Positions 3,057-28,590 of a DNA stretch of 28,783 nucleotides are shown piece after piece. A model generated the notes under the pieces. That model had not been told where the DNA came from. It made no database searches and worked only from the letters and a program-made list of their open reading frames with translations. Both the position numbers and the translations under genes were made by a program. The DNA comes from Baffinella frigidus (Eukaryota; Cryptophyceae; Cryptomonadales; Baffinellaceae). The first letter of the stretch is position 1. Every line of letters begins with the position of its first letter. The stretch covers positions 80,306-109,088 of the forward strand of contig MU647230.1 in the NCBI GenBank assembly GCA_026770585.1, given 5' to 3'.

Positions 3057-6000
3057 GCGCGCGCGCTTCCCCTCCGGCTTGTCATTGGAGCCGTTGCCTG
3101 GTGAGGAATTGGAGCCGTTGTTTGGTGAAACGTTGGAGCCGTTGATGACTTCCCGAGGCGGGCCCGACCCTTCCCGCGCGCGCTTGTGCGAGGAGGTGGG
3201 CGCCTCCGCCTCCGCCTCCGCCTCTGTCGAGGGTTTAGACTTTTAGTTTTAGTTTTTAGTTTTTGGGTTTAGGGTTTGAGATTTTGGGTTTGGGATTAGG
3301 GATTAGGGATTAGGGATTAGGGATTAGGGATTAGGGATTAGGGATTAGGGATTAGGGTTCAGGGATTAGAGATTAGGGTTCAGGGTTTAGAATCCCGGGT
3401 GGAAACCAACTTTGCACAGATTTTCGGAGGCACGGGGGCCTGCTAAGTGGACTGAGACAGATGACCGGCTATTCTCAAATTGACACGCTGGGGTTCCGGT
3501 ACAAATTTGTCGACTTTGGGCGTGCCTCCGAACGGCGCGGCGGACGTGTCGCGTGGGGAGGTCGATCCTCCTGAACCTCCGGAGCCTCCAGAACCCCCGA
3601 AGGAGGATGTGCCGGATCCAGTGTTGCCGCTCTGCTCGTGGGGGGGGCAGGGGTTAGGGGTTGAGGGTTGGGGGTTGGGGTGTAGGGGTTAGCGGGGTGG
3701 TGGTGGATTATCCTGAACCCCCGGGGCCTCTTGAACCTACTGAACCCCCGAAGGAGGATGTGCCAGATCCGGTGTTGCCGCTCTGCGTGAGGGGTTAGGG
3801 GTTAGGGGTTAGGGGTTAGGGCTTGGGGTTTAGGGGTTAGGGTTTGGGGTTTGGGGTTTAGGCTTTGGAGTTTAGGGGTTAGGGTTTAGGGTTCAGGGTT
3901 TAGGGGTTACCGAGCCAACCATCCTGTGGAGTTCCCACGGTTCCAGAGGGGTAGATAGGGTTCAGGGTTTAGAGTTGAGGGTTGAGGGTTTGAGGTTTGG
4001 GGTTTAGGGTTTAGGGTTTAAGGATTCCCCGGATTTGCACCAGTGGGGGGGGGCGGTCCATGTAGGGTTTGGGGTTTGGGGTTTGGGGTTTGGGGTACAG
4101 GGTTTGGGAGTTGGTGGTTTCGTGCAAGTGGGCGGCAGTGCTCAGCTCCGGGGTTGAGGGGGGTTCAGGTTTCAGGTTTTAGGTTTTAGGGGTTGGGTTT
4201 TAGTGTTTAGTGTTGAGGGTTTACCGAGCCAACGATCCCGTGGAGGATTTAGGTTTCAGGGTTTAGGGTTTAGGGTTTAGGGTTTATCATCTAGGGTGTA
4301 GGGTTTAGGTGTTGGTGGTTTCGTGCAAGTGGCCGGGAGTGCTCAGCTCCGGGGTTGAGGCGGGAGTGCTCACTTGGGGTGTAGGGTTTCAGGTTCAGGG
4401 TTTCGGGTTTCGGGTTTGGGATTTCGGGTTTCGGGTTTCAGGTTGAGGGTTTCGGGTTTCGGGCTCAGGGTTTGGGGTTTAGGGTTTACCGAGCCGACCA
4501 TCCCGTTGAGGTGCTCGTTCTGGTTTCGAAGCTCCTGCGGAAAGCGGGGTGTAGGTTTTAGGGTGTAGGGTTTGTAATTCAGGGAATGGTGTTTAGGGTT
4601 TGAGGTTTGGGGTTCAGGGTTTAGGGCTCAGGGTTTGGGGTTGAGCTCCTGCGTAGTCAAGATAGGTTATGAGCCTGGGGGGGTGCCGCAACACAGGCGA
4701 GCACACCCTAAACACTAAACCCTAAAGTTTCTGCAAAAGAATGGACCACCGTGAGCGTCATCGCGAGACAGTGTGCTCTGGGAGAGAGACTTTTCGGGAA
4801 GCTGTCAAGTCCGACACTGTCTAGCTCTGCCTCACTCGAGTTGGCCAACTTTTCTCAAGTTGACATGCTGGGTCGCGGTACAAATTCGTCAACTTGGGGG
4901 CGGAAAAGAGCCCGGGCCCACCAAATTGGTGAGCCCAAATAGACCGAGACAAAGCTAGGCTGTCAGTCTGCTTGATCAGGGTACGGGTACGACGGTTTCT
5001 GGGGGAGGGGCACTCTGCCCTATACCCTACCGGCAACCCCCAAGCGTCAAACACCAGACCCCCAAGACTACTCAGAGGTTCCCTGCCACACAGTGTGCGT
5101 CGAAAGGAAAATTCGACCAGAACTCTGGGCGAAATTTCGGTCAACAAGAAGTCTTCGTACCAAGCAATTCTTAATTAGTACCACGAACATAAATGGACCG
5201 ATCTGCGAAACCCACTATGCAGGCCACACGGCGGACTTCGAAGGGATTTCGAATAACCCCTTAGTGAACAATCCATAGGCCCTACGGTAGCTAGTAACTT
5301 AGGGGCATAGGGGGGTTCCTTCGGACAAGGCAACGGAAAGTCGGCCCGATTTGGGCCGAAAATTCCTGCGTAGCCCGCTGGGTGGATGGGCGCTTGCCTG
5401 GATGAGGGCGATGGAAGATTCGAGAACGCCGTTCTTGTCCGAGCCTTCGCACCCCGTGATTGTCCGCAGGTCCTCGTACAGCTTGCTCATTCTGCGCAGG
5501 ATAGTTTACGGTTTAGCGTTTGGCTCCTGCAGAGTCGAAAGAGGTTATGAGCCTGAGGGGGGGGGGGGGTGCAGTATCACAGGCGATGCCACCCTAAAAC
5601 ACCCCGTGATTGTCCGAAGATCCTCGTACAACTTGCTCATCCTATCCCATGGTGCGCGTCGGCCAGGTTAGCTCCAAAGGATGTAGCTCGGTACACACTG
5701 TCGGATCGTGGTACAAGTTTAAAACTCACTCGTACACAACTTGTAGCCACACACGCCCGGGGTGGAGGGGGCTAGCGCCTGTCTAGGGTTTAGGGTTTAG
5801 GGTTTAGGGTTTAGGGTTCAGGGTTCAGGGTTTAGGGTGTAAGGTGCAGGGTTCAGGGTGTAGGGTGTAGGGGTTGCGCCTGTCGCAGCGGCTCCACTCA
5901 ACCTTCTTGCGATACAAGTTTAGAGTTTGAGGTTGAGGTGCTAGGGTCAAAGGTTTGCCTGTCGCAGCGGCGGCGTTCAATCTTCTTATGCAACTCCTTT

Positions 6001-9000
6001 CTGACTATGCTTAAGTGGACATCCTGGACGCGTGGCACTGATCCGTCAACTCTTGTGCGAGGCTTGTGCCTGTCACGGCGGTGGCGCTCAATCTGCTTGT
6101 GGTGCTCATTCCGCGCGGCCCTTGGCTCCTCGGTGGTCCCCTCCAACCCTAGACCCTAGACCCTAGACCCTAGACCCTAGACCCCAGACCCTAGACAGAC
6201 ATTTGCCCTCCTCACCCCCGGTGTGTGGAGAGGGCTGGTGCCTGTCACGCTCCTTACGCGCGGCCCTCCGCTCTGTGGGGGGGCTAGTGCCACTACCTAA
6301 TGAAGGGTGTAGGGTGCAGGGTGTAGGGTGTAGGGTGTAGGGTGTAGGGTGTAGGGTGTAGGGTGTTTGCCTGTCACGGCGCCTTCGCTCAATGTGCCTG
6401 TGATGCTCCTTCCGCGCGGCCTGGCGTTCCTCAGTGGTCCCCTGGCCTTCCTCTCCCCCCTCCCCCCCCTCGGAGCCCTCTCTCCCCTCGGAGCCCTCCG
6501 AGAAACCGTGGCGCGTGGCGGAGTGCGAGGAGGTGTTGCTCCCCTGCGGCAGAGAGAGAGGGGGGGTGCTTGTTAATATTCACAAGAGAGAACACCAAGC
6601 CTGAGAGAGAGAGAGAGAGAGAGAGCGAGCGAGGGGGAGAGAGAGAGGGTCAGAGGGGGGTGATGAGGGTGAGGATGCCACCACAGGTCGACCTGTCCAC
6701 ACGAGGCTACCCCAGCACCCTTTTAAAATATCAAGTGTAGGCGTTTTGCGTGGAGTTTGTCACGTGACCTCCGTTTAAAGCGGAGGCCACGTGACCGAAC
6801 ATGTGAAAATTACTACTCACTGCCTCACTTCTACAGCTCCTGGGTTTTAAATTGGGGAATGCAACAGCCTCGTGTGGGCGACCACAGGCCACCGGGGTTT
6901 TGAAACCTGCGAACAAACGTCGGAGACTGTTTTAAATACCAACACGAGAGAAACACCAAGACTGAGAGAAAGGCCTTGATTCACACCAACACGGCCGTCA
7001 TGTACCCCCACAGAGAGAGGCTGTTGTTAATACCACCACGAAACGAAGACCGCGAGACAGACCACTATTAATACCGTTATTGATACCAGCACGGCCGCCG
7101 TGTATGCACCCCCACAGAGGCAATGTCTGAGCTATTCTCAAGTGGACATGCTGGGTGCGCGGCACACGCCCGTCAACTTTGCAGCGAAAAGAGCCCGCCT
7201 CAATTTGGTGAGCCCGAACAGACAGAGACAGAGCTAGGAGGGAGGTAGGCGGGGTTTAGGGTTTAGGGTTTAAGGTATAGGGTTTAGGGTTCAGTGTTCA
7301 GGATGTAAGGTTTCAAGTATAGAGTATAGGGTATAGGGTATAGGGTATAGGGTATAGGGTATAGGGTATAGGGTATAGGGTGAAGGGTGTAGGGTATAGG
7401 GTATAGGGTATAGGGTATAGGGTATAGGGTATAGGGTGTAGGGTGTAGGGTGCCACCTCTCCGTAAAAATAAAATATGATTGTAGTGCCGAATCAACCCT
7501 AAACCCCAACTCCCAGAATAGACAGACCTAGGGGTGCCACCTCTCCGTACCCTCCTCCTCCCGCGGGAGGGGAGTTGCTCGACCCTCACCCCGAGCGATT
7601 TCCTGCTTATTATAGCGCTGACTAATATTATTATAGTGCTGACTAACACTATTGCAGTGCTGACTAATAGTATTATAGTGCTGACTAATATTATTATAAT
7701 GCTGACTAATAGTATTATAGAGCTAGGGGTGCCACCTCTCCGTACCCGCCTCCTCCTCCCGCGGGCGGGGAGTTGCTCGACCCTGACGCCGAGCGATTTT
7801 CTGCGCAGGGTTAGGGTTTGGGGTTTATGGTTTAGGGTTTATGGTTTAGGGTTTAGTGTTTAGGGTTTAGGGTGTTTGGGCGGTAGGGCGGTAGGGTGTT
7901 AGGGTGTTAGGGTGTTAGGGTTGAGGGATCAGTTCAGGGTTGATGGTTAATGGTCAATGGTGCGGGGTTCAGGATTTGGGGTTTAGGATTTAGGGTTCGA
8001 GGGGACGAACCTCTGTTGAAGCGATTCCTGGAGGATGCGGTGAGCTGCGATATGGGGGGCACCGTGCAGCCTGCCGTGGGAGTTATAGTCAGCACTATAA
8101 TACTATCAGTCAGCACTATAATGCTATTGGTCAGCACTATAATAATATTAGCCAGCACTACAATACTATCAGTCAGCACTATAACAATATTATTCAGCAC
8201 TATAATACAATTCCCGGAGGAGGAAGAGAGCCGCGAGGAGGAGGTCACCGGGTATAGGGTTTAGGGTTTAGGGTTTGGGGTTCAGGGCTTAGGGTTTAGG
8301 GTTTGGGGTTTAGGGTTTAGGGTTTCGGGTTTGGAATTTAGGGTTTAGGGTTTGGGTTTTGGGGTAGGGGTCTAGGGTTCAGGGTTTGGCACAATGACAC
8401 AAGGTTAGCGCGTCGCTTTACAGCAACTTGGCAGGAGGGTTTAGGGTTTAGGGTTTAGGGTTCAGGGTTTAGGTTGACAGACAGAGATGGAGAGGGAGGG
8501 CGAGAGGGAGTGAGAGAGGGGGGGGGGAGAGTGAGAGTGAGAGTGAGAGTGTTCGAGAGAGCGAGAGGGTGATCGACCGCGCGCCGGCCAGCTGATGATG
8601 GTGTGATGACGCTGATGCGGCGCTCTACAATCCTATAAGTCAGCACTACAATACTATTAGTCAGCACTATAACACTATTAGTCATCACTATAACACTATT
8701 CGTCTGCACTATAATACTATTACCTGCGAGCGGGCCAGCTGTAGGTGATGGTGTGACGAAGCTGACGCGGCACTCTAGTCAGCACTATAATACTAGTAGT
8801 CAGCACTGTAACACTATTAGTCAGCACTGGAATACTATTAGCCAACACACAAGTAGACAGCACTATAATACTATTACCTGCGAGCGGCCGAGTGCCGGCA
8901 AGCTGGAGGTGATGGTGCGATGACGCTGACGCGGCGCTCTAGTCAGCACTACAATACTATTAGTCAGCACTTTAATACTATTAGTCAGCACTACAATAAT

Positions 9001-28460: not shown

Positions 28461-28560
28461 GGCCCGTTTTCTAGCCCACGGTACACAAGCAAGCCAGCTG
28501 AATAACCCCCCAACTGAAGAACCCCCGACAACCCCCAAAGAAAACAGGGGGGGGGGGTAC

Positions 28561-28590
28561 CCCGTTGAACATGGCGGTGGCAGCGGGGTT
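28561..28590 (-). pseudogene. copy of AMT exon 28333-28394 (3' end)
   Basis: Encodes AATAMFNG with donor GTACCC; ACG/ACC is silent. No convincing acceptor is seen, so it may be a relic. Confidence 0.6.

Follow-up and report, generated by a model that had tools for sequence, protein, structure and literature searches.

Copies of exon borders in the introns of an ammonium transporter gene, a bHLH gene and other genes of Baffinella frigidus: possible scars of local duplication

Introduction

Tandem exon duplication and mutually exclusive exons have reportedly been treated by Kondrashov and Koonin and by Letunic and colleagues. Mutually exclusive exons resemble the copies described here in that single exons are copied side by side, but such exons are whole and spliced. 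The present analysis concerns a stretch of 28,783 nucleotides of the cryptophyte Baffinella frigidus (contig MU647230.1, positions 80,306 to 109,088; hereafter the window), in which an ammonium transporter (AMT) gene and a bHLH gene lie on the minus strand, together with eleven further loci of the same genome. Most of the exon copies in these introns have only one exon end and lack the second splice site.

Several other described systems share some features with this locus. In Drosophila, introns are gained or change position through tandem duplication of coding sequence, and duplications of splice or proto-splice sites leave exon-like intron sequence; there a new intron is born (PMC2891723), whereas here existing introns hold the copies of exon borders, many per gene. 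Small tandem duplications made during break repair are a plausible source of short local direct duplications and are not known to be tied to exon borders or intronic arrays (PMC8355091, PMC5730883). False heterotype duplications also place extra exons beside real ones, but those are mostly separated by gaps (PMC9516828, PMC2864568); the copies reported here are gapless, short and partly decayed. The introns of Amoebophrya show that repeats can populate protist introns, there reportedly as invasive elements (PMC7789003), while here each copy lies beside its own exon. Among the open-licence matches listed, no title or abstract opening described exon-border copies of this kind. To our knowledge, there is no precedent for such a density of putative scars, at half of the exons examined.

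Copies of Exon Borders Beside Their Own Exons

The assembly searched comprises 382,457,362 bases in 1364 contigs, and the window is the terminal part of its contig (C856). Thirteen hand-chosen loci with 70 exons were studied: the AMT and bHLH genes, which were given; three CCT subunit genes, from three of the four contigs matched by PF00118 (C1202 was excluded); an ABC gene (Pfam ABC_tran), which we take to be eEF3-like, from one of two N-free stretches; and seven kinase loci hand-picked among 108 Pkinase matches. The complete exons and their frames were written down, and each exon with 8 flanking bases was aligned, in sense orientation, to the remainder of its gene outside the exons. Arrays had to be masked, as an unmasked self-comparison was swamped by the 7-mer arrays of the introns. 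As controls, each exon was compared with the antisense strand of its gene and with intron sequence from the 12 other loci. At a threshold score of 34, 65 same-strand copies were found, as against 1 in 910 control comparisons; the corresponding numbers for a six-gene subset of 52 exons, to which the indel counts and the splice-site counts at outer copy ends below are restricted, are 54 copies and 1 in 312. Copies are present in the assembly far above chance. At least one copy lies at 35 of the 70 exons and in 11 of the 13 loci, the two loci without copies being short kinase stretches (L032 and L034); exon D of the CCT6 gene is among the exons for which no copy was found. Shorter copies below the threshold were seen by eye and left uncounted (e.g., the 51-nt units of L024, exon B of L031, and L033). 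Outside the counts are L011, L017, L021, L025 and L027 (no exon models; some local duplicates present) and L038-L040.

The copies have a characteristic anatomy. Only the exon start is held by 23 copies and only the exon end by 29, while 10 are internal and 3 are whole (bHLH exon x7 twice and x8 once). Relative to the complete exon, copies of the acceptor end are upstream in 21 of 23 cases and copies of the donor end downstream in 27 of 29 (Fisher p 3e-10), such that the kept exon end faces away from the complete exon in 48 of the 52 one-ended copies (the facing rule). The median gap between copy and exon is 203 bases. No copy (0 of 65) lies beyond a neighboring complete exon, where 64% would be expected under random placement. 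Copying acts locally, repeatedly, and on one exon border at a time.

Splice sites are often retained at the outer ends of the copies. Those reaching the exon end continue with GT in 20 cases, GC in 3 and TT in 1, and of those reaching the exon start, 16 have AG before it and 6 do not; homology on the acceptor side drops to background past approximately 8 nt. New splice sites do not peak at the inner ends (GT 12 versus 14.6 expected), and the excess of AG there (26 versus 16.3 expected) is equaled farther out (25 versus 16.3). On this ground the idea that the copies are mini-exons with new splice sites was rejected. Frameshifting indels of 2, 4, 5 or 10 nt occur in 6 of the 54 copies, one of them a whole x7 copy, and a copy in L037 has a TAG stop together with five changes at codon position 3. 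Such copies are evidently dead.

Some exons have been copied in series. Exon B of the kinase locus L036 has five donor-end copies in a row within about 620 bases (series L036:1032-1720), and exon C of the CCT zeta-like gene (L030:1399-2220) has five acceptor-end pieces by eye, four of which were scored; splice sites are intact in both. Clear repeats of units that include intron sequence occur in L036, L030 and L024, where such units appear to have been recopied, and the arrangement is similar at AMT exons h and i. In the CCT1 gene, 17 complete exons, each present once and in order, cover CCT alpha residues 23-535 (700 bits), and the introns hold 7 copies. Since the complete exons, each used once, cover CCT alpha, the copies are surplus in that gene.

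The initial annotation had described multiple adjacent single-exon copies in the two minus-strand genes, which is borne out by 18 copies in the AMT gene and 14 in the bHLH gene. It had described them for these two neighbors; the same pattern occurs in 9 of the 11 other loci examined, housekeeping genes included, a small hand-picked sample that favors a genome-wide process. The order b1, a1, b2, a2 given for the first two AMT exons proved wrong, the plus-strand order being b (27869-27931), b' (28118-28177), a (28333-28394) and a' (28558-28584). Interleaving would have favored segmental duplication of exon pairs, which was rejected on the block order and the absence of copies past a neighboring complete exon; the conclusion that exons were copied one at a time is backed by the same two observations. 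The annotation also held that several copies keep acceptor, donor and phase, implying a splicing repertoire of whole exons. This is not supported, as 52 of 65 copies possess a single exon end, inner ends show no splice-site peak, and one of the three whole copies has a 10-nt deletion, so that phase is not preserved in all of them.

Divergence Between Copies and Exons

One-ended copies, which could not serve as exons in their present form, unexpectedly differ from the complete exon mainly at silent sites, in the manner of coding sequences. Differences occur at 69 of 1316 0-fold sites (0.052), 34 of 228 2-fold third positions (0.149) and 105 of 367 4-fold sites (0.286). Codon position 3 carries 148 of the 222 differences (0.667), with a range of 0.59-0.72 when bootstrapped by exon family (n = 29), copies of one exon being non-independent. 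In simulations with the six-gene set, a copy dead since its birth gave a position-3 share of 0.43-0.46 at equal mutation rates, and the share rose to 0.55-0.64 once the functional branch was made 3 to 6 times longer. Neutral decay since birth thus falls short of the observed share. Position 3 exceeds positions 1 and 2 for every base, whether in CpG or not, which rules out CpG or base composition as the cause. The position-3 share is 50 of 89 for states found in a single copy and 27 of 33 for states common to at least two copies. Much of the divergence probably arose while the sequence was coding. Because the divergence is mainly synonymous, the exon part is read as drawn from, or exchanged with, diverged alleles.

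Possible Origins of the Copies

The explanation favored here, to which about an even chance is given, is that the copies are scars of real small local duplications, the exon part of which came from, or exchanges with, diverged alleles. Each duplication would span a single exon border together with the splice site there. If one breakpoint of a tandem duplication fell in the exon and the other in the intron, the result would be an acceptor and exon start upstream, or an exon end and donor downstream, and units including intron would occasionally be duplicated again. The duplications may originate by template switching or unequal exchange, aided by the C-rich TTTAGGG-type arrays of the introns. 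The complete exon would be the spliced one and the copy would decay through frameshift, stop or truncation, while the exon part would originate in a diverged allele or later be swapped with one. What was found agrees with local duplication in adjacency and same orientation (0 of 65 copies beyond a neighboring exon) and in the predicted side (48 of 52).

Several observations weigh against this explanation. Flanking intron is alignable above the 95% null in 11 of 58 cases, and the greater part of the duplication units can therefore not be seen directly. A search for a diverged second locus of AMT or CCT1 gave none in the searchable genome, much of which reads N, and the diverged allele is hypothetical. 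Inner ends are array-like (7-mer) in 15 of 52 cases versus 617 of 4054 random places (p 0.011, uncorrected), a weak indication that arrays are involved in the duplication. Position 3 remains in excess even among copy pairs that share flanks (48 of 80 differences), contrary to what plain decay would give. Between copies in pairs with alignable non-array intron, differences number 44 of 182 at position 3, 30 of 383 at positions 1 and 2, and 171 of 1253 in the intron; positions 1 and 2 diverge less than the intron and position 3 more, the mean over the three positions being near the intron level, a result not fully explained. Furthermore, the loci were hand-chosen, the copies are known from the assembly sequence alone, and haplotype pieces interleaved by the assembler would give the same pattern.

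The last point is the main rival, considered unlikely: pieces of a diverged haplotype or homeolog would have been placed beside their own exon by the assembler. Where haplotypes share an exon and differ in its introns, the left and right branches of the resulting bubble could be laid upstream and downstream of the exon. Such an artifact predicts the facing rule, adjacency, divergence biased toward synonymous sites, breakpoints near repeats and the lack of a separate second locus, and the AMT gene runs off the contig end inside a 7-mer array. False exon gains caused by haplotypes are documented, mostly gap-separated and sometimes joined through wrong gap filling (PMC9516828), and for such falsely duplicated exons another study reports no mRNA with two copies (PMC2864568). 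However, no N lies between copy and exon in any of the 65 cases, so the gap expected of a false heterotype duplication is lacking, which leaves room for wrong gap filling free of N. Up to 8 copies of one exon, the five donor-end copies crowded together in L036, the frameshifting indels and the stops in some other copies also speak against an artifact, and the 4-fold divergence is in our judgement far above that of usual alleles. Plain duplication in cis, in which a copy is cut from the neighboring exon and decays neutrally with no second source, accounts for topology, adjacency and shared intron units. It is nevertheless rated quite unlikely, as it should give the simulated position-3 share and, by reasoning, a ratio of 0-fold to 4-fold divergence of about 0.5, and the observed values are 0.667 and 0.18; it holds only if functional exons change several-fold faster than copies at silent sites.

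The coding-like divergence would also suit functional alternative or mutually exclusive exons, as would bHLH exon x7, whose other three copies are whole or nearly so and in two cases have 3-nt indels. This origin appears improbable for the copies in general: 52 of 65 are without one exon end, whole exons number 3, inner ends are not new splice sites, one x7 copy has lost 10 nt, and CCT alpha requires each exon once. Some x7 copies may nevertheless be tolerated in the protein, the x7 stretch being low-complexity. The fading of acceptor-side homology would suit insertion of mobile or retro-copied exon pieces derived from mRNA, but many copies keep AG or GT with a few intron bases and all 65 adjoin their own exon. 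No copy with joined exons was seen with the single-exon queries, no search aimed at joined copies having been made, and this source is held to be very improbable.

The favored explanation of local duplication may be extended, tentatively and with more doubt than belief. Real copies would stay in exchange with the functional exons of diverged alleles, the arrays would act as recombination seams, and the introns would form a genome-wide archive of past or allelic exon sequence in which dead pieces are continually rewritten by ectopic exchange. If real, the copies would constitute a natural record of intron growth and a readout of duplication mechanism, intron turnover and allele exchange, and would mislead gene prediction. 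If they are an assembly effect, exon-level claims made from this genome need correction.

The AMT Gene

The minus-strand AMT gene contains the C-terminal part of an ammonium transporter (Pfam PF00909 Ammonium_transp, E 2.2e-28). Its 18 copies belong to 7 of 10 exons; exon h is present as 1 complete exon and 8 pieces, i as 1 and 4, and j as 1 and 2. Exons and copies are as follows.

28333..28394 (-): exon a, complete, WIFILSLWNHRLAATAMFNG, AG/GT borders
28558..28584 (-): copy of a, 3' end and GT, upstream; one of the four exceptions to the facing rule
27869..27931 (-): exon b, complete, ILAGLAGITPASGFVSTQATI
28118..28177 (-): copy of b, acceptor and positions 1-52 of 63, upstream
27669..27713 (-): exon c, no copy found
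27352..27416 (-): exon d, no copy found
26737..26788 (-): exon e, no copy found
26432..26485 (-): exon f, complete
26131..26173 (-): copy of f, positions 16-54 and donor, downstream, 4-nt deletion
24943..25020 (-): exon g, complete; start may be off by a few bases
25183..25253 (-): copy of g, positions 4-70 of 78, upstream, 4-nt insertion
23277..23343 (-): tail exon h, complete, probable GC donor; splice placed from the protein, the h-i join reading DHGEVAY
24443..24498 (-): copy of h, acceptor end 1-58, frameshifting deletion
24241..24303 (-): copy of h, acceptor end 1-59, the most decayed
24128..24186 (-): copy of h, acceptor end 1-58
23967..23989 (-): copy of h, acceptor end 1-20
23700..23766 (-): copy of h, acceptor end 1-59
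23596..23635 (-): copy of h, positions 27-66, upstream; exception to the facing rule
23065..23127 (-): copy of h, donor end 13-67, downstream
22822..22850 (-): copy of h, donor end 47-67, downstream
22181..22292 (-): exon i, complete
22453..22492 (-): copy of i, acceptor end 3-42, running into a CCCTGAA array
21929..22002 (-): copy of i, donor end 41-112, downstream
21728..21786 (-): copy of i, donor end 59-112, downstream; differs at 6 third codon positions and nowhere else
21526..21607 (-): copy of i, donor end 39-112, downstream
20711..20804 (-): exon j, putative terminal exon, with TGA at its end; i-j splicing putative
20995..21061 (-): copy of j, acceptor end 1-59, upstream
21204..21238 (-): copy of j, internal piece

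Exon g possibly starts some bases later, in which case its internal copy would count as an acceptor-end copy upstream. An in-frame TAA (22177-22179) directly after exon i sits within the GT donor (ATGAA|gtaaca). Splicing of i to j would lengthen the protein by 30 residues.

The bHLH Gene

The bHLH gene has 14 copies at all 9 of its modelled exons, and the gene has more exons than these. The Pfam HLH match (E 1.4e-5) spans exons x10 and x11, joined over a GC-AG intron. Exons x2, x4, x5, x7 and x8 were modelled provisionally, and their borders may be off by a few bases.

6371..6543 (-): exon x10, basic region, complete, probable GC donor
6067..6142 (-): copy of x10, donor end 101-173, downstream
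6238..6265 (-): copy of x10, internal piece
5959..6002 (-): weak copy of x10, donor end RKELHKKIERRRCDR, sub-threshold; by eye, unscored
5880..5914 (-): weak copy of x10, donor end YRKKVEWSRCDR, sub-threshold; by eye, unscored
5398..5491 (-): exon x11, helix-loop-helix, complete, probable GC donor
5600..5643 (-): copy of x11, acceptor end 1-42, upstream
4490..4534 (-): exon x12, complete
4217..4246 (-): copy of x12, donor end, downstream
3903..3931 (-): copy of x12, donor end, downstream
3526..3631 (-): exon x13, complete, donor uncertain
3699..3786 (-): copy of x13, acceptor end 1-75, upstream, in-frame stop
8878..8940 (-): exon x7, low-complexity SAASASSHHH, complete; its first two bases are its own AG
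9123..9184 (-): upstream whole copy of x7 lacking 3 nt
8716..8784 (-): downstream whole copy of x7 lacking 10 nt
8571..8627 (-): nearly whole copy of x7, 1-59 of 63, downstream; exception to the facing rule
7723..7800 (-): exon x8, provisional, unconfirmed by homology
7524..7606 (-): whole copy of x8, stop in the assumed frame
10367..10396 (-): copy of x5 (provisional exon 10705-10758), donor end, downstream

The earlier counts for this gene are upheld: exon x7, said to occur four times, is found whole or nearly whole four times in all, and the five occurrences of x10 correspond to one complete exon, two scored copies and the two weaker ones. From the reading frame and HLH or AMT homology, introns starting with GC appear to follow x10 (6370), x11 (5397), AMT exon h (23276) and perhaps x13.

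Intron Arrays, Repeats and Other Features

CCCTAAA-type 7-mer arrays fill the introns of both window genes. In the AMT gene 18 of the 19 arrays have C-rich sense strands, and CCT1 shows the same bias. In the bHLH gene 18 of 24 arrays are C-rich on the sense strand, the six exceptions being one 7-mer array and five 21-nt arrays. Telomerase healing was considered as a source of the arrays and not adopted, as by reasoning the strand orientation suits donor-end copies only. The 21-nt tandem arrays flank bHLH exons x7 and x8 (7607-9498 and 11021-11101) and read GTGCTGACTAATAGTATTATA on the sense strand; their CTGAC and CTAAT words resemble branch points.

Scans of the whole window with Rfam and for tRNAs gave no match. 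Between the AMT and bHLH genes lies an open frame with a MYND zinc finger (17648-18508, plus strand; Pfam PF01753, E 6e-12). Palindromic elements of about 120 bp that resemble miniature inverted-repeat transposable elements (MITEs) occur in both orientations (GGGGTACCTCGCTCATAAG...CTTATGAGCGAGGTACCCC), and loci L025 and L029 contain similar sequence. The repeats of the window are as follows.

2168-2285, 2797-2923, 12339-12498, 19431-19553, 19818-19906, 20173-20294: MITE-like palindromes
4820-4964, 7132-7238, 9920-10064, 10395-10461, 22515-22573: second interspersed repeat, at most about 145 bp, in both genes and both orientations
1-142, 264-420, 433-496, 791-932, 1920-2019: repeated block of 60-160 bp, copies about 84-96% identical, one inverted

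Elsewhere in the genome, the chaperonin match at C1202:9689-9916 lies within an intronless frame of 446 amino acids, unlike the other CCT loci, and may be a contaminant or an organelle-type gene. PF00504 has nine matches in the genome. Three light-harvesting genes were examined, of which two best match ACPI/ACPII/CAC chains (261 and 285 bits), which are cryptophyte proteins and point to a cryptophyte host, and the third has a weaker, different best match (128 bits).

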